This document shows positions 3,773-25,261 of a DNA stretch of 29,159 nucleotides, piece by piece. Position numbers and translations under genes: made by a program. Below the pieces are notes generated by a model. It was given only the letters and a program-made list of their open reading frames with translations. It was not told the DNA's origin and did not search any database. Source of the DNA: a virus; the IMG/VR virus record IMGVR_UViG_3300005588_000080, positions 1 to 29,159 of that record. The stretch is one strand, 5' to 3'. How positions within the stretch are numbered: the stretch's first letter is position 1; each line of letters begins with the position of its first letter.

Positions 3773-4252
3773 GTGAGTCGATCTACAGTCATTACTCGAA
3801 AAATTGAATTTGATGCTGGGCATCGGGTTCTCGGGCATGAGTCGAAATGTGCAAATCTGCACGGGCATCGGTACGTTGCTGAGATATCTGTCACAGCTGA
3901 TGCTCTGGATAGTCTGAGCAGGGTGGTTGATTTCAGTGTCGTAAAGAAAATTGTTGGTGGTTGGATTGATGAATATTGGGATCACAATTTTCTTCTGAAT
4001 CGAAACGATCCCTTGTGCGACGTACTGGACAGCATGACTGACGAGGAAGCCAGAGAGTTGGTCGGACCAAAGACGCCGTATTTGATGCCTGATGGACTCA
4101 ATCCAACGGCAGAGACCATGGCGGAAGTTTTGTTTGAAGTGGCTGTTGATTTGCTTGAAGATGAGCTGGTCACGGTCACTCATGTGCGGCTCTATGAAAC
4201 ACCGAATTGCTGGGCAGATTATGGAGAAGAACACACAGAAGATAGAGCCTAA
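3773..4252 (+). CDS. queD: 6-carboxy-5,6,7,8-tetrahydropterin synthase QueD
   Basis: 159 residues. It converts dihydroneopterin triphosphate to 6-carboxytetrahydropterin, the second step to 7-deazaguanine. The family signature is clear: FDAGH (His17) and HGH (His30, His32) bind zinc, Cys26 in the KCANLHGH segment is the catalytic cysteine, DHNFLL (Asp70, His71) supplies the catalytic Asp/His, and TAE plus YETPNCW near the C-terminus complete the fold. An insert of roughly 30 residues follows DHNFLL. The start is a GTG preceded by GAGAGAGG. The QueE gene begins inside its last 32 bases in another frame, so the two are probably translationally coupled. Confidence 0.93.
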   Translation: MSRSTVITRKIEFDAGHRVLGHESKCANLHGHRYVAEISVTADALDSLSRVVDFSVVKKIVGGWIDEYWDHNFLLNRNDPLCDVLDSMTDEEARELVGPKTPYLMPDGLNPTAETMAEVLFEVAVDLLEDELVTVTHVRLYETPNCWADYGEEHTEDRA

Positions 4253-4922
4253 GGATGCTCATCCGGACGGTTCGGTGGAAGTCCATTCGATCTGGGATAC
4301 AGTGCAAGGCGAAGGCCCCTTTTTTGGGACGCCGGCTGTCTTTATCCGGTTGGCAGGCTGTAATCTACAGTGCCATTGGTGCGACACTGACTACACTTCT
4401 GTTCGAAAAAGAATGACACCTTTGGATGTAGTCGAAGAGTTGTCGGCTTTGCCGAGCAGAAAGCTGATAGTCATCACTGGAGGTGAGCCTTTCCGTCAAA
4501 ATCTGCAATCTTTGGTTCTTCGTCTCATTGACGAGATGGGTCCGGGCGGGATTGTGCAGATAGAGACAAACGGTACACTAGGTGTGCCGTTCATCCTGGC
4601 AAAGATGTCAGTGGTATGTTCGCCGAAGACACGGTCAATCCCACATCAAACCGCTATGAGAGCGGATGCATTCAAGTATGTGGTGAAAGCTGGATTGATT
4701 GATTCGAGTGATGGACTGCCTTTAGTGTCGGTCGGACCTCAATATGGTCGTCCGTACCGCCCACCGATGCTCAATCAAGTGGCTGACAAAATTTTTGTGC
4801 AGCCGCTGGACGAAAAAGATGAGATCAAGAACAAGAAGAACCTGGATGCTGCGGTGGAATCCTGCCGTAGATTCGGTTATCGCTTGTCTGTACAGACCCA
4901 CAAATTGGCAGGACTGGATTGA
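4221..4922 (+). CDS. queE: 7-carboxy-7-deazaguanine synthase QueE (radical SAM)
   Basis: 233 residues from the ATG at 4221. It contracts 6-carboxytetrahydropterin to 7-carboxy-7-deazaguanine (CDG). Near the N-terminus are VQGEGPFFGTPAVFIRL and then GCNLQCHWCDTDY, whose CX3CX2C cysteines (47, 51, 54) hold the 4Fe-4S cluster that cleaves S-adenosylmethionine. TGGEP follows and contacts SAM, and ETNGT is also typical. The frame remains open far upstream inside queD. The ATG chosen gives a family-typical N-terminus, and the ribosome binding site before it is weak, consistent with coupling to queD. It overlaps folE by one base (TGATG). Confidence 0.93.
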   Translation: MEKNTQKIEPKDAHPDGSVEVHSIWDTVQGEGPFFGTPAVFIRLAGCNLQCHWCDTDYTSVRKRMTPLDVVEELSALPSRKLIVITGGEPFRQNLQSLVLRLIDEMGPGGIVQIETNGTLGVPFILAKMSVVCSPKTRSIPHQTAMRADAFKYVVKAGLIDSSDGLPLVSVGPQYGRPYRPPMLNQVADKIFVQPLDEKDEIKNKKNLDAAVESCRRFGYRLSVQTHKLAGLD

Positions 4923-5554
4923 TGGATTTGAACGAGGACTATCGCATTCTGGCAAATGTCACATCAGATGCTCTTCGTCGAGCAGCAGAAATCACGATCG
5001 ACCAAGCTAAAGATGCGGTTACCACTTTGCTTCGGTTTATCGGCGAAGATCCCACTCGGGAGGGTCTTCTCGATACTCCGAGGCGGGTGGCGGCTAGTTT
5101 GCTTGAGATGAACTCAGGGTACCAAGAGTCCGAAGATGCAGCCATGGAAAGAATTATGACTGTGTTCGAGGATGGTGCTTGCAATGAAATGGTGCTCTTG
5201 AGAAGCATTGAGTTCATCTCATTGTGCGAGCACCACATGCTGCCGTTTTCTGGTCGAGCTCATATTGCGTATCTACCAGACGGAAAGATCATCGGTATCT
5301 CGAAGTTGGCTCGGATTTTGGATTACTATTCACGGCGGTTGCAGGTACAAGAGCGACTGTGCCAGCAGGTGTCTGATGCACTGAACAAGCATTTGCAGCC
5401 AAAGGGAGCTGCGTGTGTGATTGAGGCCCATCATTCGTGCATGAGCTGCCGAGGAGTAGGGAAAAGAGACTCGGTCATGGTTACTTCGAGTCTGTACGGA
5501 TCATTCCTTGAACCGGCAGTCCGTTCTGAGTTCTTTGATTTGATTAAGGAGTGA
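4922..5554 (+). CDS. folE: GTP cyclohydrolase I FolE
   Basis: 210 residues. It opens GTP to dihydroneopterin triphosphate, the entry step for 7-deazaguanine synthesis. GEDPTREGLLDTPRRV (41-56), the zinc motif CEHH (Cys102, His105), GLSK-like GISKLARI, QVQERL and HHSCMSCRGV (third zinc ligand Cys173) are all present, and the length matches the bacterial IA enzyme. The start overlaps the queE stop (TGATG). An in-frame TTG just upstream is less likely. Together with queD and queE it supplies CDG without relying on host enzymes. Confidence 0.95.
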   Translation: MDLNEDYRILANVTSDALRRAAEITIDQAKDAVTTLLRFIGEDPTREGLLDTPRRVAASLLEMNSGYQESEDAAMERIMTVFEDGACNEMVLLRSIEFISLCEHHMLPFSGRAHIAYLPDGKIIGISKLARILDYYSRRLQVQERLCQQVSDALNKHLQPKGAACVIEAHHSCMSCRGVGKRDSVMVTSSLYGSFLEPAVRSEFFDLIKE

Positions 5555-5559
5555 GCGCG

Positions 5560-6030
5560 ATGGCTCAGATGACGACAAGTGAACGCGCAGACATCAAGAA
5601 GTTGATCGATGACCGATATCTGGCGGGAATGAGGGAGTTGGCAGTAACTGATGAGTCGCATGAGCGGCGACTTGAGGAACGATGTCGAAAGGTTGCTGTC
5701 GGCCGTCTCAAGATTGCGAAGGAGCTGGCAGAGGTTGAACGACTGGAAGCGGAGTACGCAAGTATCGGCGAGAAGCTGGAAGTGGCCAGGGAGAAGCTAA
5801 ACAAGAAACTGCCGTACGAGAAACGTCATCACTCGCGATCGTGTCCGTCAAGAATGGATCTGTGCTCTGCGATTGCGGCGGTTGTCGATGAGGTAAGAGA
5901 GGCCGAGCGTGCCAAAGACGCAACTGGCAGGAAGGTGCTGCAGCTTCGTGCCGAAAAACAGCGGCGATATGAGAAGTTGGCTGGTTGCCGGACTCAAGAA
6001 GACGTCGCGGCGGCTCGAATTTTTGATTAA
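5560..6030 (+). CDS. Coiled-coil protein of unknown function
   Basis: 156 residues. The sequence is charged and mostly helical, with heptad-like Lys/Glu/Leu-rich stretches at roughly 45-90 and 110-145 separated by a short HHSRSC segment, so it is probably a coiled-coil hairpin. It has no membrane segment or enzymatic motif. The ATG at 5560 lies 8 bases after AAGGAG. A GTG at 5551 is in frame but falls at the edge of that site. The gene sits between folE and the transglycosylase gene, and a supporting or scaffolding role in the modification pathway is only a guess. Confidence 0.75.
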   Translation: MAQMTTSERADIKKLIDDRYLAGMRELAVTDESHERRLEERCRKVAVGRLKIAKELAEVERLEAEYASIGEKLEVAREKLNKKLPYEKRHHSRSCPSRMDLCSAIAAVVDEVREAERAKDATGRKVLQLRAEKQRRYEKLAGCRTQEDVAAARIFD

Positions 6031-6043
6031 GGAGTGAGTATCA

Positions 6044-7117
6044 GTGCCCTTGATGCTTGACAGTGGTGCGTTTTCTGTTTGGAACTCTGGCGCTGAAATC
6101 GATATCAGAACGTACATCGATTTCTGTCATCAGCATCCTGGTGTGTCGTACTATGTGTGCCTGGATGCCATTCCTGGTAAACCTGGACTGCCGAATTCTC
6201 GATTGCCTGAATTGGTGGCGGCTGCCTGTGAGACGAGCTGGAACAATTATCAGCTGATGATCAAAGAGCTGCCCATCGAAAAAGTCATTCCGGTCTTCCA
6301 CCGAGGAGAGGACTTGAAGTGGCTGGAAAGGTACATCGAGTTCGGCAGTCCTTATGTCGGGCTTGGTCAGACTTGCGGCTTTGGGTCCAAAGATTCTCAG
6401 AAGAGGTATTTGACTGGGCTCCAGAAATTGCTGTTTGATGGAGCTGGTAGGCCGACAGTCAAGACTCATGGGTTTGCCGTCACGTCGTTTCAGTTGATGA
6501 AGTACCAGTGGTGGTATTCAGTTGATTCGGCGAGCTGGCTGAAGCAGGCAGCCTATGGAGTGATTTACATTCCGAAGAAGAGGAATGGTGAGTTTGTTTA
6601 TGACGAACCACCATTCTTGCTGAATACGTCCCCGAAGTCTCCAACTCGGGATGAACGGAATACGCATTACACGACTCTGTCGCCTACGCTTCGTGCATGG
6701 GTAGACGAGTACCTTCAGGAAAAGAAGCTGCCTGTCGGTGAGATTGAGATAGTAGACGTTTCTTCGGGGTATAAGAAATCGCCTGATGAGCTTTGGTTCG
6801 ACGGCAAAAAGAATAAGGTGGTGCGGACGGTCACTCCTGGAGTAGTTACATCTCACCAATGGCGGTTTCGAGCGAATGCTGGATTCATCATTCGAGCGAA
6901 TCAGGATTTGCCCGTCGATCACATCTATTTCGCTGGCGGCGAAGGATCTATCGACGATTCCGTTGAATTTCGTCTGAGAAGACGGTTGATGTCCTATCAT
7001 AAGATTGGGATGACGACGACAACTAAGGGGCACAAGGCATTTCGGAAATGGACAGAGATTGCACCGAAGCAAAAAATCGAACCGAGTGGGTCAATGCTGA
7101 CATCGACCTCTTCTTAG
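6044..7117 (+). CDS. dpdA: DpdA-like guanine transglycosylase (7-deazaguanine insertion into DNA)
   Basis: 357 residues. The protein begins with LDSGAFS (Asp6), which corresponds to the DSGGFQ catalytic segment of tRNA-guanine transglycosylases. GLGQTCGFG (about 106-114) and HGFAVTS (142-148) match the TIM-barrel substrate loops, and YSVDSASW (Asp161) supplies the probable nucleophilic Asp. Phage DpdA enzymes use this scaffold to replace guanine in DNA with a 7-deazaguanine. The linked folE-queD-queE genes make that role much more likely than a tRNA role. The C-terminal 120 residues (about 235-357) are not recognised and may bind DNA. I did not assign a DpdA subfamily. The GTG start follows AAGGAG by 9 bases. 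The 3' end overlaps the next gene by 70 bases. Confidence 0.82.
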   Translation: MPLMLDSGAFSVWNSGAEIDIRTYIDFCHQHPGVSYYVCLDAIPGKPGLPNSRLPELVAAACETSWNNYQLMIKELPIEKVIPVFHRGEDLKWLERYIEFGSPYVGLGQTCGFGSKDSQKRYLTGLQKLLFDGAGRPTVKTHGFAVTSFQLMKYQWWYSVDSASWLKQAAYGVIYIPKKRNGEFVYDEPPFLLNTSPKSPTRDERNTHYTTLSPTLRAWVDEYLQEKKLPVGEIEIVDVSSGYKKSPDELWFDGKKNKVVRTVTPGVVTSHQWRFRANAGFIIRANQDLPVDHIYFAGGEGSIDDSVEFRLRRRLMSYHKIGMTTTTKGHKAFRKWTEIAPKQKIEPSGSMLTSTSS

Positions 7118-8543: not shown

Positions 8544-9779
8544 GTGGCAGTTGGAGGCTTTTTTCCGGAATCAATTGTACGCAGCAAGCCGGCGGTTCAG
8601 GGTACTGTACCTAGATGCGGACAGTGCGGGCTCTGGGAATCGTGCAGTAGTCCGAAGTTTGAGGTCTCAGGGAAGGGGCGGCTTGGTGTTTTGATTGTCG
8701 GTGAGGCTCCTGACAGGGACGAGGATATCCAAGGCAATTCGTTCGTCGGGAAAGCTGGTCAGTATCTTCGGCGGTACTTAGAGTCCATTGGTATTGATTT
8801 TGATCGAGACTGCTGGGCGACGAATGCTATCATTTGTCATCCGGCAGGCGGCAGAGCTCCAAAGCCAGATGAAGTCGATGCATGCCGCCCAAACTTGACG
8901 AATTTCCTCAAGGAGTACAAACCGAAGGTCATCATACCTTTAGGCGGCTCAGCGATTCGTTCTGTTTTGAGTCCTTTCTGGAAGACTGATCCAGGCGGCG
9001 TGAATCGTTGGGTAGGGTATCAAATACCACTCCAGCGAATAAATTCTTGGGTGGTGCCGGATTTCCATCCATCATTCATTCTGACGAATGATCGCAAACC
9101 GAATGGTCCGGTAACTCGGTTGTGGTTCGAGCGGTGCTTGAAACAGGCTTTTGATCTCAGCGGTAGTAGGCCGTGGACTGAAGTGCCTGACTATCGTGGG
9201 CAAGTGGAGTTGGTGCATGACCCTGACGAAGCTGCTGCCATTATCAGAGAATGGTGCAAAACACCGCGTCCGGGGTCATTTGATTACGAAACGACATGCC
9301 TTAAGCCTGATGCTGATACCAGCCAGATTGTATCCTGTGCGGTTTCTTACGCAGGCAGACGCACCATTGCTTTTCCTTGGGCGGGAGCAGTGAAGGAAGC
9401 GATGAGCGAGTGGCTTCAGTCGCCGTGCCCTAAGATAGGGGCCAACAACAAATTCGAAGATCGGTGGACTCGAGCGGAGTTTGGGCATTCAGTGAATAAC
9501 TGGGTATGGGATACAATGCTGTCCGCTCATCACTTGGATAATCGCCCTGATACAAAATCAGTTGAGTTTCAGGCTTTTGTACGGTTAGGATTTGAGCCGT
9601 GGAGCGGATCAATGGGCCGGGACCTGAAAACTGGTAGCGGGTCTAGTTCGTACGATCAGAATCAGCTGGTACATACGGATAGAAGGACATCGCTGACGTA
9701 CAATGGGCTAGATGCTTTGGTTGAGTATCTCGTAGCAAAGCACCAAAAGAAAGAAATGGTCGATGGAAACGCAGTATGA
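8544..9779 (+). CDS. Uracil-DNA glycosylase (family 4/5-like) fused to DnaQ/PolA-type 3'-5' exonuclease
   Basis: 411 residues, two enzymes in one chain. Residues 1-205: CGQCGLWESC near 25-34 suits part of a 4Fe-4S site, IVGEAPDRDEDIQGNSFVGKAG (first 20 residues are the family 4 motif 1 region) binds uracil, and FHPSFIL (about 174-180) is motif 2. Residues 225-411: a DYET box (DxE), GANNKFEDRW with a later WDT, and YNGLDALVEY (YxxxD) give the DEDDy proofreading exonuclease. This is the N-terminal equipment of a family A polymerase, but the polymerase domain is on a separate gene about 1.1 kb downstream. SPO1's polymerase is known to carry a UDG-like domain. A GTG start follows GAGGAG. Confidence 0.85.
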   Translation: MAVGGFFPESIVRSKPAVQGTVPRCGQCGLWESCSSPKFEVSGKGRLGVLIVGEAPDRDEDIQGNSFVGKAGQYLRRYLESIGIDFDRDCWATNAIICHPAGGRAPKPDEVDACRPNLTNFLKEYKPKVIIPLGGSAIRSVLSPFWKTDPGGVNRWVGYQIPLQRINSWVVPDFHPSFILTNDRKPNGPVTRLWFERCLKQAFDLSGSRPWTEVPDYRGQVELVHDPDEAAAIIREWCKTPRPGSFDYETTCLKPDADTSQIVSCAVSYAGRRTIAFPWAGAVKEAMSEWLQSPCPKIGANNKFEDRWTRAEFGHSVNNWVWDTMLSAHHLDNRPDTKSVEFQAFVRLGFEPWSGSMGRDLKTGSGSSSYDQNQLVHTDRRTSLTYNGLDALVEYLVAKHQKKEMVDGNAV

Positions 9780-10763: not shown

Positions 10764-10870
10764 GTAGTGGTGGTGGTCCGAATTTGGATAAGTTCGTGCT
10801 GATCACTACTGTGATCTGTTTTGGGCTCTTTGTTGTTCTGTTTGCTGTTGCTTGGGTGACAACTCTGTGA
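10760..10870 (+). CDS. Tiny single-span membrane protein (36 residues)
   Basis: GTG start 11 bases after AGGAG, overlapping the previous stop (GTGA). The peptide has a short glycine-rich N-terminus, then about 23 hydrophobic residues (KFVLITTVICFGLF onwards), and ends almost at the membrane. The last codons overlap the polymerase start. Its size, ribosome binding site and overlaps on both sides support a real gene. It could be an inner-membrane peptide anchoring replication proteins or simply a translational coupler. Confidence 0.65.
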   Translation: MSSGGGPNLDKFVLITTVICFGLFVVLFAVAWVTTL

Positions 10871-12255
10871 ATCAAATCGTCGCATCAACACCAGAAGCTT
10901 ACCAATTACTGATGCAAGGGGCTCAGGCTTTGACAGATGTCGAAGCGAACGGCATGCGGATTGATGTTGATTATCTTGACCGAGTGATCAAGCAGGCAGG
11001 TCAGAAAATCAGACGAATGGAAGTAGAGCTCAAAGACGATGAGATTTGGGCTCTTTGGCGAAAGACATTTCCAGGAAGAGCTGAATTAGGCAGTAAGGAA
11101 CAGCTTGGTAAGATTCTCTTTGGGGTGATGGAAATACCGTCGACCCGAACAACAGACACAGGCAGGGCTGCAGCAGATATCGAGGCGCTTGAAGAGATCG
11201 ACTTACCTTTCGTCAAGAAATTCCTGTCGCTCGAGAAGCTGAAGAAAGCTCGTGGCACCTATCTGCAAGGAATTCGTCGAGAAACCGTTGATGGCTTTCT
11301 GCATCCGAATTTTGATTTGTGCTTTGCTCGTACGTTTCGGAGCTCAAGCTCTACCCCGAATTTCCAAAACATGCCTATTCGGGATCCCCGGCAAGCGAAG
11401 TTGATACGACGAGCATTTATCCCAAGAACGCCGGAGCACTTGTTGGTCGAGATCGATTATTCGGCTCTTGAGTTTCGTGGGGCAGCTTGCCAGTGGAATG
11501 ATCCATCGATGGTGGCGTATGCGAGCGACCCTAGTCTGGACATCCATCGAGACATGACAGCAGAGTGCTATTCTATTTCTGCTGATCAGGTCACGAAGGC
11601 TGCTCGAGGGATGGGGAAGAACAAATTCGTTTTTCCGATTCTCTATGGCAGTTATTGGGGGAGCTGCGCAGAGGCTTTGTGGGCTGTCATTGATCGAATG
11701 GACCTTAAGACTGTTGATGGTGTCGGTCTGCACGAGCACTTGAGTAGTGTTGGTATCAATGCTCTTGGAAACAAGAAGCATCCAGAGATGGATTCGTTCT
11801 ATCGACATGTCAAAAAAGTCGAGCAGAGATTTGGAGATCGGTTTCCGGTCTGGCGTGACAAGAAAGAGGTTTGGTGGAACGAGTACCTCAAACGCGGTTG
11901 GTTCAAGATGATGACCGGGTTTGTGTGCAAAGGGGTCTACACCAAGAACAACATCTACAACTATCCAATTCAAGGACCATCATTTCATCTTCTTCTCTGG
12001 TCTCTCATTCAAGTGAATGAGTGGTTGAAGCAGAATAAGATGCGTTCTAAAGTAATCGGTCAGATTCATGATTCAATGGTGCTAGACGTGCATCAGGATG
12101 AGTTTGACGACGTAATTTACGAAGTCAATCAAGTGATGACACAGAAGGTTCGTCAGCATTGGGATTGGATTGTCGTGCCTTTGGAAATCGAAGCCGAGGC
12201 TTCTCCGACGAATTGGTTTGAGAAGAAAGCGGTGGACGTAACGCAGGTGGTCTAA
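10867..12255 (+). CDS. DNA polymerase, family A, polymerase domain only
   Basis: 462 residues from a GTG that overlaps the preceding stop (GTGA). A TTG at 10852 is also in frame but less likely. Motif A is LVEIDYSALEFRGA (catalytic Asp), motif B lies in RGMGKNKFVFPILYG, and motif C is GQIHDSMVLDV (catalytic Asp after His). A thumb-like region with TFRSSSSTPNFQNMP precedes motif A. Motif B has one residue more than the usual spacing between Lys and Tyr, and the FVFPILYG form differs from the textbook NFGLIYG. There is no exonuclease domain here. It is encoded at 8544 together with a uracil-DNA glycosylase. This is presumably the replicative polymerase, working with the clamp and loader nearby. 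Confidence 0.93.
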   Translation: MNQIVASTPEAYQLLMQGAQALTDVEANGMRIDVDYLDRVIKQAGQKIRRMEVELKDDEIWALWRKTFPGRAELGSKEQLGKILFGVMEIPSTRTTDTGRAAADIEALEEIDLPFVKKFLSLEKLKKARGTYLQGIRRETVDGFLHPNFDLCFARTFRSSSSTPNFQNMPIRDPRQAKLIRRAFIPRTPEHLLVEIDYSALEFRGAACQWNDPSMVAYASDPSLDIHRDMTAECYSISADQVTKAARGMGKNKFVFPILYGSYWGSCAEALWAVIDRMDLKTVDGVGLHEHLSSVGINALGNKKHPEMDSFYRHVKKVEQRFGDRFPVWRDKKEVWWNEYLKRGWFKMMTGFVCKGVYTKNNIYNYPIQGPSFHLLLWSLIQVNEWLKQNKMRSKVIGQIHDSMVLDVHQDEFDDVIYEVNQVMTQKVRQHWDWIVVPLEIEAEASPTNWFEKKAVDVTQVV

Positions 12256-21091: not shown

Positions 21092-22366
21092 ATGTTTGAG
21101 AAACTCAAACTGAAGAATTTCCAAGCCCACAGCAAACGAACTGTCGAGTTCGATGAAAAAGTGACTACGATTGTCGGTTCTTCGGACTCTGGTAAATCTG
21201 CAATCATTCGTGCTTTGCAGTGGGTATGCTGCAACCAGCCGCAAGGTTCGGCTTTCATTCGTGAAGGAGAGAAAGAGGCTGTTGTTCGGTTAGAAGTCGA
21301 TGGGCAAGTTATCATTCGACGAAGAACGGCTTCAGTGAATGAGTATCGACTCGGAGAGTCCAAGCTCAAGTCGTTCGGTGCATCGGTACCGGATAAGGTT
21401 GCTGATCTGTTGAATTTGAATCAGATCAACACACAAGCGCAGCACGATTCACCGTTTTGGTTTTCAGAGACTTCAGGCGCAGTTTCTCGAAGATTGAATG
21501 AGGTTGTCGATCTCCAGATAATTGATAGCAGTCTGCAGTCATCGAAATCTCGAGTGAAACGAGAGAGGACTGCCGAAGAATTGGCTGAAGAGCGACTTGT
21601 CGCAGTTCGAAAAGAAGCCGAAGAGCTCAAGTGGGTGGAGGATGCTGATAGCCTTTTGGTTGCAGTAGAATCAAAGCAAAAAGAAGCCGCAGACGTAGCC
21701 AGTCGTTCAGCTGATCTTGGAATTTTGGTTGAATCGATTCGAAAGGCTCGGAGAAAAGTTAAGCAGGGCCAGGGCGCTGTCGAAGGTTTGCTGGGGCTGA
21801 TCAATTGTGCGAAGCAGCATTTCCAGTATCAGCAAAGAATTGATTCACTGAAGATCTCTATTCGTCGATCAAAAGATTCGGGTGCACTGATATCTCGACT
21901 TAGTGGGCAGGTCGAATTGGTGGATCGAGTAGTGGTCGCTGGTCGTTTATGTCTGCGCAGGAAAGATCAGTTGCAGGTGGTTGCCAGCTACCTGTCTGCG
22001 GTACGTAGCAGCAACCAGGCGGCATTGGTAGCAGCAGCAGCTGACAGGGTACTAGATGCTGCCAGGCAGGCCGGGAAGTCTAGGAAACGATGTAATCAGT
22101 TGATGCTGCTGTGCGGTCAGGTCGGTGGGGCTCAGAAAGCTGCGAGTAGGCAAGTGCCTGACCTGAAAGGTTTGCACGATCTAAAGAAATCAGTCGAAGA
22201 TATACGGTTTGAGTGTACTTCTCTGGAACGGCAAGTTCAGCGAATACAGGAGGCTCAGAGTAGCCTTGAATTGGTAAGCAAGAAGTTTGCACAGGCAAGA
22301 AAAGAGGCGGCTGCTCTGAAAGGGTTCTGTCCATTGTGCGGAAAGGAGTTTGGCGGTGGTGGTTAG
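21092..22366 (+). CDS. SbcC/Rad50 (gp46-like) N-terminal half ending at the zinc hook
   Basis: 424 residues. FEKLKLKNFQAHSKRTVEF leads to the Walker A IVGSSDSGKSA (Gly29-Ser36), and INTQAQHDSPFWFSET is the Q-loop-like region. From about 150 to 405 the chain is coiled coil. CPLCGKEF near the end supplies Cys413 and Cys416 of a Rad50 zinc hook. The protein then stops, so there is no ABC signature or Walker B. These are on a separate gene at 24689. The two proteins, together with the SbcD-like nuclease at 23278, should make a DNA end-processing complex. Ribosome binding is weak. It overlaps the next start. Confidence 0.85.
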   Translation: MFEKLKLKNFQAHSKRTVEFDEKVTTIVGSSDSGKSAIIRALQWVCCNQPQGSAFIREGEKEAVVRLEVDGQVIIRRRTASVNEYRLGESKLKSFGASVPDKVADLLNLNQINTQAQHDSPFWFSETSGAVSRRLNEVVDLQIIDSSLQSSKSRVKRERTAEELAEERLVAVRKEAEELKWVEDADSLLVAVESKQKEAADVASRSADLGILVESIRKARRKVKQGQGAVEGLLGLINCAKQHFQYQQRIDSLKISIRRSKDSGALISRLSGQVELVDRVVVAGRLCLRRKDQLQVVASYLSAVRSSNQAALVAAAADRVLDAARQAGKSRKRCNQLMLLCGQVGGAQKAASRQVPDLKGLHDLKKSVEDIRFECTSLERQVQRIQEAQSSLELVSKKFAQARKEAAALKGFCPLCGKEFGGGG

Positions 22367-22637
22367 TGCGTACTTGATTGTGATTTGTGACACAAAAACT
22401 CATGCGATTCTTCGTGCCGAAATTTGGTCGTCTCCTGAATGGCAGCAGTCTCGAGTTCTGCCTAATTGCCGGACGTACGTTGCCTATGAATTGAAAGCGC
22501 CGTCATTTCAGATAGGCATTGATAGAATCATTGAGATGGTACTTGAGCCAACGAATCGATACCACTATCTCGAGGATTACTTGAGATTAGGAAGACCAGA
22601 AGAAAGTAGAGTTTGCGATGAGCACGATTCGATTTGA
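22356..22637 (+). CDS. Small hypothetical protein
   Basis: 93 residues from a GTG 7 bases after AAGGAG. The gene begins 11 bases before the end of the Rad50-like half. It opens with beta strands (SAYLIVICDTKTHAILRAEIWSS), is soluble, and ends with a charged helix. No motif is recognised. It overlaps the protease gene by 20 bases. Nothing beyond its place in the operon hints at function. Confidence 0.7.
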   Translation: MVVSAYLIVICDTKTHAILRAEIWSSPEWQQSRVLPNCRTYVAYELKAPSFQIGIDRIIEMVLEPTNRYHYLEDYLRLGRPEESRVCDEHDSI

Positions 22638-23262
22638 GCGGTACTATGCGAGAGATGATAGAGACTACAGTCTTCCTGTCTTGAGCACTCATCGATGGGC
22701 CAGAAGATGGCGAGTCGGCAGGCCGATGAACCAAGAGACTTCGCCTGCGTGTGTAGGGTACGCTGCGTACCATTGGCTGGATGCAGAACCAATTCGTCAG
22801 AGGCCGATGCATCCCAATGGTATCTATGAATTGGCTAAGAACTACGATGAGTGGGAAGGTACTCAGTACGACGGGACGTCGATTCGTGGAGCGATGAAAG
22901 TCCTCAAGTTGACAGGACATGCCAAAGAGTATCGATTCACGACAAATGCTCAGACAGCAGCTCACTGGATTCTCGAAAAGGGTCCGGTCATCTTGGGAGC
23001 GAATTGGTACTTTGGTATGATGCAGACAGATTCGTCTGGATTTGTACATGCCCACGGGAGTTTGATGGGAGGGCACGCGGTCACGGTTTTTGGGGTGAAT
23101 CTCAAAGATGGGTTTTTCTTTGCAAGAAATTCTTGGGGTGCAAAGTGGGGCGATGTCGGTGATTTCCGGATCAGCATTTCGGACTTCCAGAAATTGCTGA
23201 ATGAAGACGGTGAGGTGTGCACCGCTACAGAAGTCGGCTATGGTCAATCTTGGCCCTTGTAA
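22618..23262 (+). CDS. Papain-like cysteine peptidase (C1A)
   Basis: 214 residues. The catalytic set is intact: Gln39 (oxyanion) and Cys45 in NQETSPACVGYAA, His153 in GGHAVTVFGV, and Asn171 in ARNSWGAKWGDVG. There is no signal peptide and no inhibitory propeptide, so it should be active in the host cytoplasm. Substrates might be host proteins or a phage partner. It sits between the two Rad50-like halves and just before the Mre11-like gene. Some phages carry C1-family peptidases, but this placement is odd. The start overlaps the previous gene and the ribosome binding site is weak. Confidence 0.85.
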   Translation: MSTIRFERYYARDDRDYSLPVLSTHRWARRWRVGRPMNQETSPACVGYAAYHWLDAEPIRQRPMHPNGIYELAKNYDEWEGTQYDGTSIRGAMKVLKLTGHAKEYRFTTNAQTAAHWILEKGPVILGANWYFGMMQTDSSGFVHAHGSLMGGHAVTVFGVNLKDGFFFARNSWGAKWGDVGDFRISISDFQKLLNEDGEVCTATEVGYGQSWPL

Positions 23263-23277
23263 GAATTGGAGATGGTT

Positions 23278-24243
23278 GTGGCAGATAGAGCCAGGAACCC
23301 AGACGGTGACGTGGTAGCTGTGGTGTGCTCAGATGTGCATTTGTCGCATAAACCGCCGGTGGCACGATCAGCGGAGCCGGATTGGTACGCGGCAATGCAC
23401 CGTCCGCTCAAAAAGTTGCAGGAAATCTGCAAGAAGCACTGGTGCCCTCTGCTCATCGCCGGAGATGTCTTTGATCGTTGGAACAGTCCACCGGAACTGA
23501 TCAATTTTGCTATCGAGGTTTTCGGAGAATTCCCTGCGGTGTACGCAATTCCTGGGCAGCACGATCTACCGAACCATGACCTCGAGCAAATCCATCGATC
23601 GGCGTATTGGTCGTTGGTAGCGGCGAAAGTGGTTCAGAATGTTTGTCATTCCGAACCGATTGGGATTGGACCTTCTGTGCGTGTGTTCGGCGTCCCTTGG
23701 GAATGCTCAATCGATGAACCGGAACTGGTCACCAGAGGTCAGATCAGTGTAGCCATTGTGCATTCGTATATCTGGATAGAAGGGAAGAGTTACCCTGGAG
23801 CGGATGAGAACAAGGTAGCCAGTTCTTATCTGAAGTCTCTTCAGAACTATGATGCTGCATTCTTCGGAGATAATCACAAGGGGTTTGTGGTTAAGAGCAC
23901 GGATCGTTGCCAGATTATGAATTGCGGCGGTTTAATGCGAAGAAAGATCGATGAGGTAGATTATCAGCCTCACGTAGGTTTGCTGATGGCTGATGGATCG
24001 ATTCGTGTTCATTATCTCGACACGTCACAGGACAAATTCTTGGCGGAGTCCGATTTAGCAGATATCGAATATCTGGATTCGGTAGACATCGACTCAGAAG
24101 AGTTTCTCAAGGCTTTGCAGTCGACTGGACAAGACTCTCTTGATTTTAGGGGTGCGGTTGATCGTGTCTTGGACGTAGGTAAGTATCCAAGCAGAGTTCG
24201 TGAGTTGGTGCTTGAGGACTTAGGGCAGGACATTCTTGGATGA
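23278..24243 (+). CDS. SbcD/Mre11-like nuclease (gp47-like)
   Basis: 321 residues from a GTG 6 bases after GGAG. An ATG at 23272 is in frame but abuts that site. The calcineurin-type metallophosphoesterase motifs are in order: CSDVHLSH, LIAGDVFDRW, IPGQHDLPNHD (GNHD variant), VHSYI and FFGDNHKGF. After the catalytic domain a C-terminal part (about 235-321) may bind the coiled-coil ATPase. With the two ATPase halves it would form an Mre11-Rad50-type nuclease used in DNA end resection and recombination-dependent replication. It overlaps the next gene by 4 bases (ATGA). Confidence 0.9.
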   Translation: MADRARNPDGDVVAVVCSDVHLSHKPPVARSAEPDWYAAMHRPLKKLQEICKKHWCPLLIAGDVFDRWNSPPELINFAIEVFGEFPAVYAIPGQHDLPNHDLEQIHRSAYWSLVAAKVVQNVCHSEPIGIGPSVRVFGVPWECSIDEPELVTRGQISVAIVHSYIWIEGKSYPGADENKVASSYLKSLQNYDAAFFGDNHKGFVVKSTDRCQIMNCGGLMRRKIDEVDYQPHVGLLMADGSIRVHYLDTSQDKFLAESDLADIEYLDSVDIDSEEFLKALQSTGQDSLDFRGAVDRVLDVGKYPSRVRELVLEDLGQDILG

Positions 24244-24461
24244 GCTTCGACACGTATATCCCTGACATGGATGAAATCTGGCAAACCCGTACCAAAGTGG
24301 TTGGGTTTATGCGAATCGAAGGCTGGGACGACAAGATTATCGATGATGTGATGTTCAACGATAACCCAGAACCGAGAGTTGTTCTGAGTATGGCTCGCAG
24401 GTTGGGGTGGAGAAGGACATACAAAATCATCAAGGAGATGAATGATGGCAGTGACGGTTGA
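24240..24461 (+). CDS. Small hypothetical protein
   Basis: 73 residues, with the ATG overlapping the SbcD-like stop (ATGA). It has short helical segments (IWQTRTKVVGFMRIEGW, RVVLSMARRLGWRRTYKIIKEM) and a basic C-terminal helix that could bind nucleic acid. No motif is recognised. It overlaps the coiled-coil gene by about 17 bases and lies within the split-SbcC operon. Confidence 0.7.
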   Translation: MSFDTYIPDMDEIWQTRTKVVGFMRIEGWDDKIIDDVMFNDNPEPRVVLSMARRLGWRRTYKIIKEMNDGSDG

Positions 24462-24696
24462 AGAGTTTCAGAGAATCAAGAAGAAGGTTGAGAGCCTGCA
24501 GCAAGAGGTCTCTGAAGCCAAAGGGGTTTTGCAGACGCACTTGGCAAAGCTCAAAGAAGAGTTTGAGTGCGATTCTGTCGAAGAGGCTGAAGCTTTGCTC
24601 GAGGAACTGAAAGGCAAAGCAGAGTCATCGGAACAGCAGTACACTGAACTCATGGATGAGTTTCGGGAGAAATATGGAGATCTTCTGGATGACTGA
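24445..24696 (+). CDS. Small coiled-coil protein next to the SbcC-like C-terminal half
   Basis: 83 residues. The second of two adjacent ATGs is chosen because AAGGAG lies 7 bases before it. The chain is almost wholly heptad-type coiled coil (RIKKKVESLQQEVSEAK, LEELKGKAESSEQQYTELMDEF), with a short break at FECDSVEE. It holds one cysteine only, so it is not a hook itself. Its position directly before the C-terminal ATPase half suggests it may supply part of the coiled coil missing from that half, as a third piece of a split Rad50. This is inference. Confidence 0.75.
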   Translation: MAVTVEEFQRIKKKVESLQQEVSEAKGVLQTHLAKLKEEFECDSVEEAEALLEELKGKAESSEQQYTELMDEFREKYGDLLDD

Positions 24697-25261
24697 GTAC
24701 CGTTCAAAACTCAATGAACTTCTCGCAAAGAAGAGGTCGGCTGACGATCGTTTACGAGCTTCCAGGCAGGAGCTCATTGACGCGGCTGATTCAGTAGCAG
24801 CCGCAGAAATGGCGCAGATGGTGCTGCAGTCAGCCGCCCAAGCAGTTCAGCAGGAAGCCCACCACCGTATCGCAGATTTGGTTTCTAGGTGCTTAGAAAC
24901 CATTTTTGACGACCCGTATGAGTTTCGGATTGTGTTTGAACAGAAGCGGGGTAAGACTGAGGCAAGACTTGTATTCGTTCGTGATGGAATGGAACTTGAT
25001 CCGCTGGGTTCAGCTGGCGGCGGGGTTGTCGATGTTGCTGCGTTTGCCCTCAGGTTGTCGTGTTTGATGCTGGTGCGGCCGCCGCTGCGTCGTATCTTGA
25101 TTCTTGACGAACCGTTTCGGTTCGTTTCTGCTGAGTATCGACCTCGGTTGCGGGCTTTGATTCTGCAGTTGGCTGATGAATTGGGAGTTCAGTTCATCAT
25201 GGTCACTCATATTCAGGAACTGAAATGCGGTTCCGTGGTTACGATCGGAGATGAGTCGTGA
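24689..25261 (+). CDS. SbcC/Rad50-like C-terminal ATPase half
   Basis: 190 residues, ATG 9 bases after GGAG, overlapping the coiled-coil gene by 8 bases. The first 65 residues are helical coiled coil. LGSAGGGVVDVAAFALRLSC (about 106-125) is the ABC signature region, RRILILDEPF (Asp140-Glu141) is Walker B, and MVTHIQEL (His174) is the switch histidine. There is no Walker A, so it must pair with the N-terminal half at 21092 to make a complete ATPase. Natural splits exist in some ABC-type ATPases. Here the two halves are separated by five genes including the nuclease. Confidence 0.88.
   Translation: MTEYRSKLNELLAKKRSADDRLRASRQELIDAADSVAAAEMAQMVLQSAAQAVQQEAHHRIADLVSRCLETIFDDPYEFRIVFEQKRGKTEARLVFVRDGMELDPLGSAGGGVVDVAAFALRLSCLMLVRPPLRRILILDEPFRFVSAEYRPRLRALILQLADELGVQFIMVTHIQELKCGSVVTIGDES

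Follow-up and report, generated by a model that had tools for sequence, protein, structure and literature searches.

A phage gene module that encodes Rad50 as two proteins divided just past the predicted zinc hook, with a conserved small helical partner

Results

The locus and its surroundings

The window analyzed here, a 29-kb fragment, is a whole IMG/VR record of 29,159 bases. One locus on its plus strand encodes the N-terminal and C-terminal parts of Rad50/SbcC in separate genes (the N-half and the C-half), and between them lie genes for a papain-like cysteine protease, an SbcD/Mre11-type protein, a 73-residue protein, and a small helical protein that we call cc (Table 1). The open reading frames (ORFs) given in a preliminary description of this DNA, made from the letters alone, were confirmed at the same coordinates; the 73-residue ORF is absent from that description. 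The exact start of the SbcD-type gene is uncertain, with an ATG at 23272 being possible, and the C-half gene has an in-frame alternative start at 24656. Since SbcD, the 73-residue ORF, cc, the C-half, and then a Thy1 gene overlap one another by a few bases each, the arrangement is operon-like. The 73-residue ORF is present in few relatives only and is probably not a member of the module.

The protease gene sits amid recombination genes. It had been described as one of the genes between the halves, and this is correct as to position. Its membership in the module was not upheld, because we found a related gene at only one other locus (L048), on the opposite strand and outside the module. On the same grounds we rejected the cysteine protease as a component of the complex.

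Table 1. Features of the split Rad50/SbcC locus in the window
Feature	Position	Strand	Matches and remarks
N-half of Rad50/SbcC, 424 aa	21092..22366	+	AAA_23 E=1e-12; PHROG 16465 8e-30
Walker A region VGSSDSGKS	21173..21199	+	in N-half
Putative zinc hook CPLC, invariant C413 and C416	22328..22339	+	in N-half
Papain-like cysteine protease (Peptidase_C1)	22618..23262	+	Pfam; PHROG 16701 2e-36
SbcD/Mre11-type metallophosphoesterase, 325 aa	23266..24243	+	Metallophos 1e-7; PHROG 100 (SbcD-like) 8e-8
73-aa ORF between SbcD and cc	24240..24461	+	
cc, conserved helical protein, 84 aa	24442..24696	+	no PHROG family; overlaps C-half gene
C-half of Rad50/SbcC, 190 aa	24689..25261	+	PHROG 15167 3e-24
Signature region GSAGGGVVDVAAFALR	25007..25054	+	in C-half
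Walker B RILILDEPF	25091..25117	+	in C-half

Other features of the window were recorded in passing. The family A DNA polymerase, too, appears in separate genes: the product of 8544-9779 joins a uracil-DNA-glycosylase-like domain with one that is 3'-5' exonuclease-like, and 10852-12255 encodes a polymerase domain alone. The region 3773-7117 has genes for a QueD-like (PTPS) protein, a radical SAM (QueE-like) protein, and GTP cyclohydrolase I, and after them one for a 357-residue protein that by eye resembles phage DpdA-type transglycosylases and has no Pfam match; the set points to possible 7-deazaguanine DNA modification. A CsrA-family regulator gene (7.6e-23) is found in this phage contig at 16786-17049, and the left edge (2-100) is a tandem repeat in which MPTTV occurs six times in frame.

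The two halves and the nuclease-type protein

The N-half consists of a Rad50-type N-lobe with a Walker A motif (GSSDSGKS), followed by a coil of about 268 residues. In addition to the Pfam match (Table 1), Rad50 N-lobes in the PDB match it at 4e-12. The CPLC motif occupies residues 413 to 416 and the chain stops 8 residues later, in agreement with the preliminary description, which had the protein ending soon after the hook. The hook cysteines are two of just four invariant columns in an alignment of 70 N-half sequences. Among 159 N-halves, 156 have a CxxC at most 40 residues from the C terminus, and in 135 the distance is at most 12 residues; judged by this motif, the N-halves carry a predicted zinc site of the hook type. 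All 70 N-halves that were scanned match PHROG 16465, annotated as "exonuclease."

The C-half begins with a helix of about 50 residues ahead of the lobe, which then carries the signature, Walker B, and a His switch (VTH). Walker A is absent from this ORF. The C-half was thus rightly described as having the motifs of a C-lobe only. Its signature has G where Q or E is usual, and this counts against reading the locus as a split Mre11-Rad50 complex. Rad50 C-lobes in the PDB match the C-half at 9e-9, and in the profile search of solved structures Rad50 ranks first for either half, each on its own lobe. PHROG 15167 ("ATPase") is matched by 73 of the 73 C-halves scanned. The single-chain AlphaFold models have a mean pLDDT of 84 and a pTM of 0.42 for the N-half, and of 94 and 0.78 for the C-half. 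Compared with Rad50 of P. furiosus (1F2U), the N-half model aligns with chain A (Z 12.2, rmsd 2.6, 123 aligned) and the C-half model with chain B (Z 14.6, rmsd 2.3, 132 aligned). The N-lobes of SMC and RecF score as well as Rad50 against the N-half model, as expected in this superfamily.

The SbcD-type protein has the motifs of a calcineurin-like phosphoesterase. Its family among phages departs from the canonical GNHD and GHxH metal ligands of Mre11: GQHD replaces GNHD in 140 of 168 phage relatives, and a GDNH-type motif replaces GHxH in 164 of 169. The remaining metal-site residues are kept, and nuclease activity of the family is, on these motifs, uncertain rather than excluded. Because of the altered motifs we label the protein SbcD/Mre11-type, not a confirmed Mre11 nuclease. 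The difference at two metal-site motifs also counts against the split-complex reading.

Conservation of the split module

The searches with the two halves yielded 341 sequence records, the window and phage records included, and in a single scan 494 viral stretches encode a relative of the C-half. After removal of duplicates there were 198 distinct C-halves, 164 of which had at least 4.5 kb of upstream sequence. N-half, SbcD, and cc are all present at 155 of these 164 loci. A search for phages with the same gene order had been proposed in the preliminary description, and the order N-SbcD-cc-C on one strand was found at 154 loci. No ORF fuses N and C among the 164, and at none of them are both lobes on a single polypeptide, which is the usual state of Rad50. 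The arrangement is far above chance and is not peculiar to the window.

We also looked for a second, full-length SbcC, which would speak against the proposed split, in 31 related contigs of 58 to 101 kb, and found none. Each of these contigs has one C-half and one strong AAA_23 match, which is the N-half, with open frames of 294 to 465 residues. A second AAA_23 match, below the threshold, occurs in 2 of the 31.

Split forms are carried by four cultured phages. Microcystis phage Mvi-JY20 has the identical four-gene order N-SbcD-cc-C. Bacillus phage vB_BboS-125 has the split form too, and in its publicly mostly unannotated stretch an SbcD-like gene (L001 11094-12212) lies just downstream of the C-half. 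In Microbacterium phage Magritte, whose N-half is without a hook, and Tunturiibacter phage Tunturi_5, a distance of tens to over 100 kilobases separates the N gene from the C gene, so that assembly in trans would be needed there. These data bear on a rival explanation, that a frameshift, an intein, or an insertion broke an ordinary SbcC and the locus is a decayed or misread gene. Genes do sit between the halves, as if inserted. However, about 200 distinct relatives share this break, their motifs intact and no fused copy among them, and in Magritte and Tunturi_5 the parts are far apart. We consider decay extremely improbable, and since the break recurs across relatives, we rejected the idea that this contig alone had been split by a frameshift or an insertion.

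Pairing of the halves

Direct couplings were computed on N-halves and C-halves paired from 169 loci, with C positions given as profile columns (window residue + 3). The strongest pair between the two proteins is N193-C8, and the next coil pairs are N176-C18, N168-C28, N165-C28, N151-C42, N186-C15, and N172-C21/C24. The N and C positions of the coupled pairs sum to about 192-202, which is the antiparallel line that the coil base of a Rad50 should give. This band scores 6.9, and all other bands, parallel or antiparallel, score 2.1 or less. The band is stable across three amino acid alphabets and is gone when the pairing is shuffled. In the main coil class alone (100 pairs) it scores 5.6 versus 2.5. 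In the other 69 of the 169 pairs, where depth is low, it is not the top band, and this counts against a split complex. Judged from aligned chain ends, the register appears to agree roughly with the crystal structure 1II8, whose two chain ends fall at N model residue 173 and C model residue 21. Antiparallel coil pairing is thus seen at the base of the arm, between two gene products, and the band makes it most likely that the halves pair as in intact Rad50. The N-coils outlast the C-half helix, leaving most of the arm without an assigned partner, which is a further point against the split-complex reading. Couplings of SbcD with the N-half or the C-half were not above background density in the covariation analysis.

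Arm length and the cc protein

Across relatives, the N-coil (residue 145 to the hook) is 140 to 268 residues long and falls into classes near 143, 184, 223, and 268, about 40 residues apart, with almost none at 150 to 175. This suggests that whole 40-residue units are gained and lost. The C-half helix ahead of the lobe stays at about 50 residues and cc at about 80 in every class; no correlation was found between the lengths of the C-half helix and the N-coil. The cc protein matches no PHROG consistently. It has a conserved break in the middle (around residues 40 to 44) and reads like a hairpin, and its gene comes immediately before that of the C-half, in many cases with an overlap. The preliminary description suggested the coiled-coil gene as a third part. 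As a conserved partner, at 154 of 164 loci, cc is well supported. Covariation of cc with the N-coil, the hook region, or the C-half gave no consistent register; the control, the hairpin within cc, was weak too, which marks this outcome as one of low statistical power and not as a sign that contacts are absent.

Judged by length, the shortest N class matches a T4-type gp46 with two cuts, and cc thus becomes a candidate for the descending coil that is missing. The hook is near residue 288 in that class, and cc (about 80) plus the C-half (about 190) come to about 270 residues, compared to 269 past the hook in T4 gp46 and 275 in SbcC of Synechococcus phage Sf-CH8. Rad50 would then be a three-piece protein with cc as the middle of the descending coil, and the cc gene does abut or overlap that of the C-half. 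We hold this reading tentatively and lean against it, because the central break in cc is conserved and hairpin-like, cc stays at about 80 residues while the N-coil ranges from 140 to 268, no covariation band links cc to N or C, and there is no convincing profile match between cc and the post-hook coil. A modular form of the three-piece protein, with cc as the missing descending coil beside the hook and an N-coil that grows by discrete increments of about 40 residues, seems to us rather doubtful. If true, it would be an SMC-family machine with an arm built from separate, length-tunable parts.

Alternatively, cc may be an accessory hairpin that binds the arm or the head, as a bundle partner, a chaperone-like assembly factor, or a regulator, and does not replace the missing coil. 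The conserved break and near-constant length of cc are what such a protein would have, and some N-cc couplings are strong, with an inconsistent register. The length fit of cc plus C and the position of the cc gene favor the three-piece protein instead, and we regard an accessory hairpin as a genuine possibility that stops somewhat short of an even chance.

The N-half may also fold back on itself, with its coil as a hairpin. Its CxxC would then lie close to where the C-half helix begins, and the hook would be a mid-arm joint, not the tip of the arm. AlphaFold divides the N-coil into helices at 141-259, 263-289, 294-352, and 359-407, the last helix is near the head in some structural alignments, and many members have a Pro-containing break before their last 50 to 60 residues. 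Against this, the pTM is low (0.42), residues 265 to 310 have low confidence, and covariation shows no clear antiparallel band within the chain. We think a folded-back arm is unlikely.

Discussion

We conclude that the locus very probably encodes a naturally split Mre11-Rad50 (SbcCD) complex, with chains that assemble post-translationally and cc as a dedicated subunit. The computed support for this covers gene content and order, the absence of fusions, the fold, and the pairing of the N and C coils. The preliminary description viewed the halves as complementary parts of a Rad50-type ATPase and expected them to combine with the nuclease in an obligate hetero-oligomer; structure matches, module conservation, and covariation all agree with this.

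In the proposed complex, the N-half would contribute Walker A, the ascending coil, and the hook, and the C-half would contribute the signature, Walker B, the His switch, and the head-proximal descending coil. After translation, the N and C chains would associate so that both lobes form one ABC head, with the C-half helix antiparallel to the first 50 to 55 residues or so of the N-half coil. In ABC and SMC proteins, an ATP site is made of Walker A and Walker B from one head and the signature from the other. Because the N-half has Walker A and the C-half has the other motifs, an active unit would need at least two N plus two C. On binding ATP, the two heads would come together and drive the SbcD nuclease, which would sit at the base of the coil as in T4 gp46/gp47, and cc would be a fourth subunit.

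The location of the hook on one half had been taken to force an unusual dimer. This argument does not hold: in intact Rad50, too, each protomer carries a single CxxC, and two protomers share one zinc ion (PMC5093744). A hook-to-hook contact between two N-halves would therefore still be possible. The split form lacks the chain after the hook, not the hook. Peptides around the hook, 4 to 45 residues long, span a range of more than 650,000-fold in dimer formation constant (PMC5093744), and from this we infer that a hook with no strand and helix following it may be weak. Another chain, perhaps cc, could complete it.

The complex may act on DNA ends in recombination and replication. Other genes of the window code for a RecA-like protein, RuvC, a 5'-3' exonuclease, and an AAA protein that resembles a clamp loader, which makes recombination-linked replication the most likely role. 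The PADLOC matches (LmuB, mad3, GajA, and PtuA) are of a general SMC/ABC type and offer no grounds for labeling the locus a defense system.

Rad50 is an ATP-driven arm that acts on broken DNA. How signals and force pass between its head and its hook is an open question, one usually framed for a chain that continues to either side of the hook. Across a broad group of phages, Rad50 is made as two proteins cut just past the zinc hook, with a conserved cc; the covalent connection that would return from the hook has been lost there in evolution, and an extra subunit has been kept. Parts that can be expressed separately, mixed, and swapped make communication between hook and head directly testable. 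PHROG 16465 and PHROG 15167, two families that the catalogue lists apart and does not connect, become one complex together with the undescribed cc family, and linking the three will lead to corrected annotations in many phage genomes.

The best Rad50 match for both halves is the P. furiosus protein (1F2U/1II8), whose N and C parts form two chains in the crystal, like the phage halves. The two-chain form of those crystals is a laboratory construct of an intact protein, whereas in phages it is the natural gene arrangement. Since crystallized Rad50 heads have N and C as separate chains, linkage in one chain is not structurally required. We found no description of a split Rad50/SbcC in the open-licence literature searched, where the nearest case is the phiKZ-type phage SPN3US, whose SbcC (gp186) and SbcD (gp27) genes lie apart, each intact (PMC5105663). 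SbcC of phiKZ-type phages stays one chain, while here SbcC itself is split. The module also resembles T4 gp46/gp47 in having a phage Rad50-type ATPase, an Mre11-type nuclease, and small ORFs in the same cluster. The T4 proteins are thought to resect DNA ends and are required for recombination and host DNA degradation (PMC3016280, PMC5105663, and the T4 record). T4 gp46 is one chain of 560 residues, with a CPTC hook at residue 288 and 269 residues past it; here, in contrast, the chain stops at the hook, the C-lobe is on a separate gene, and a conserved cc protein is present.
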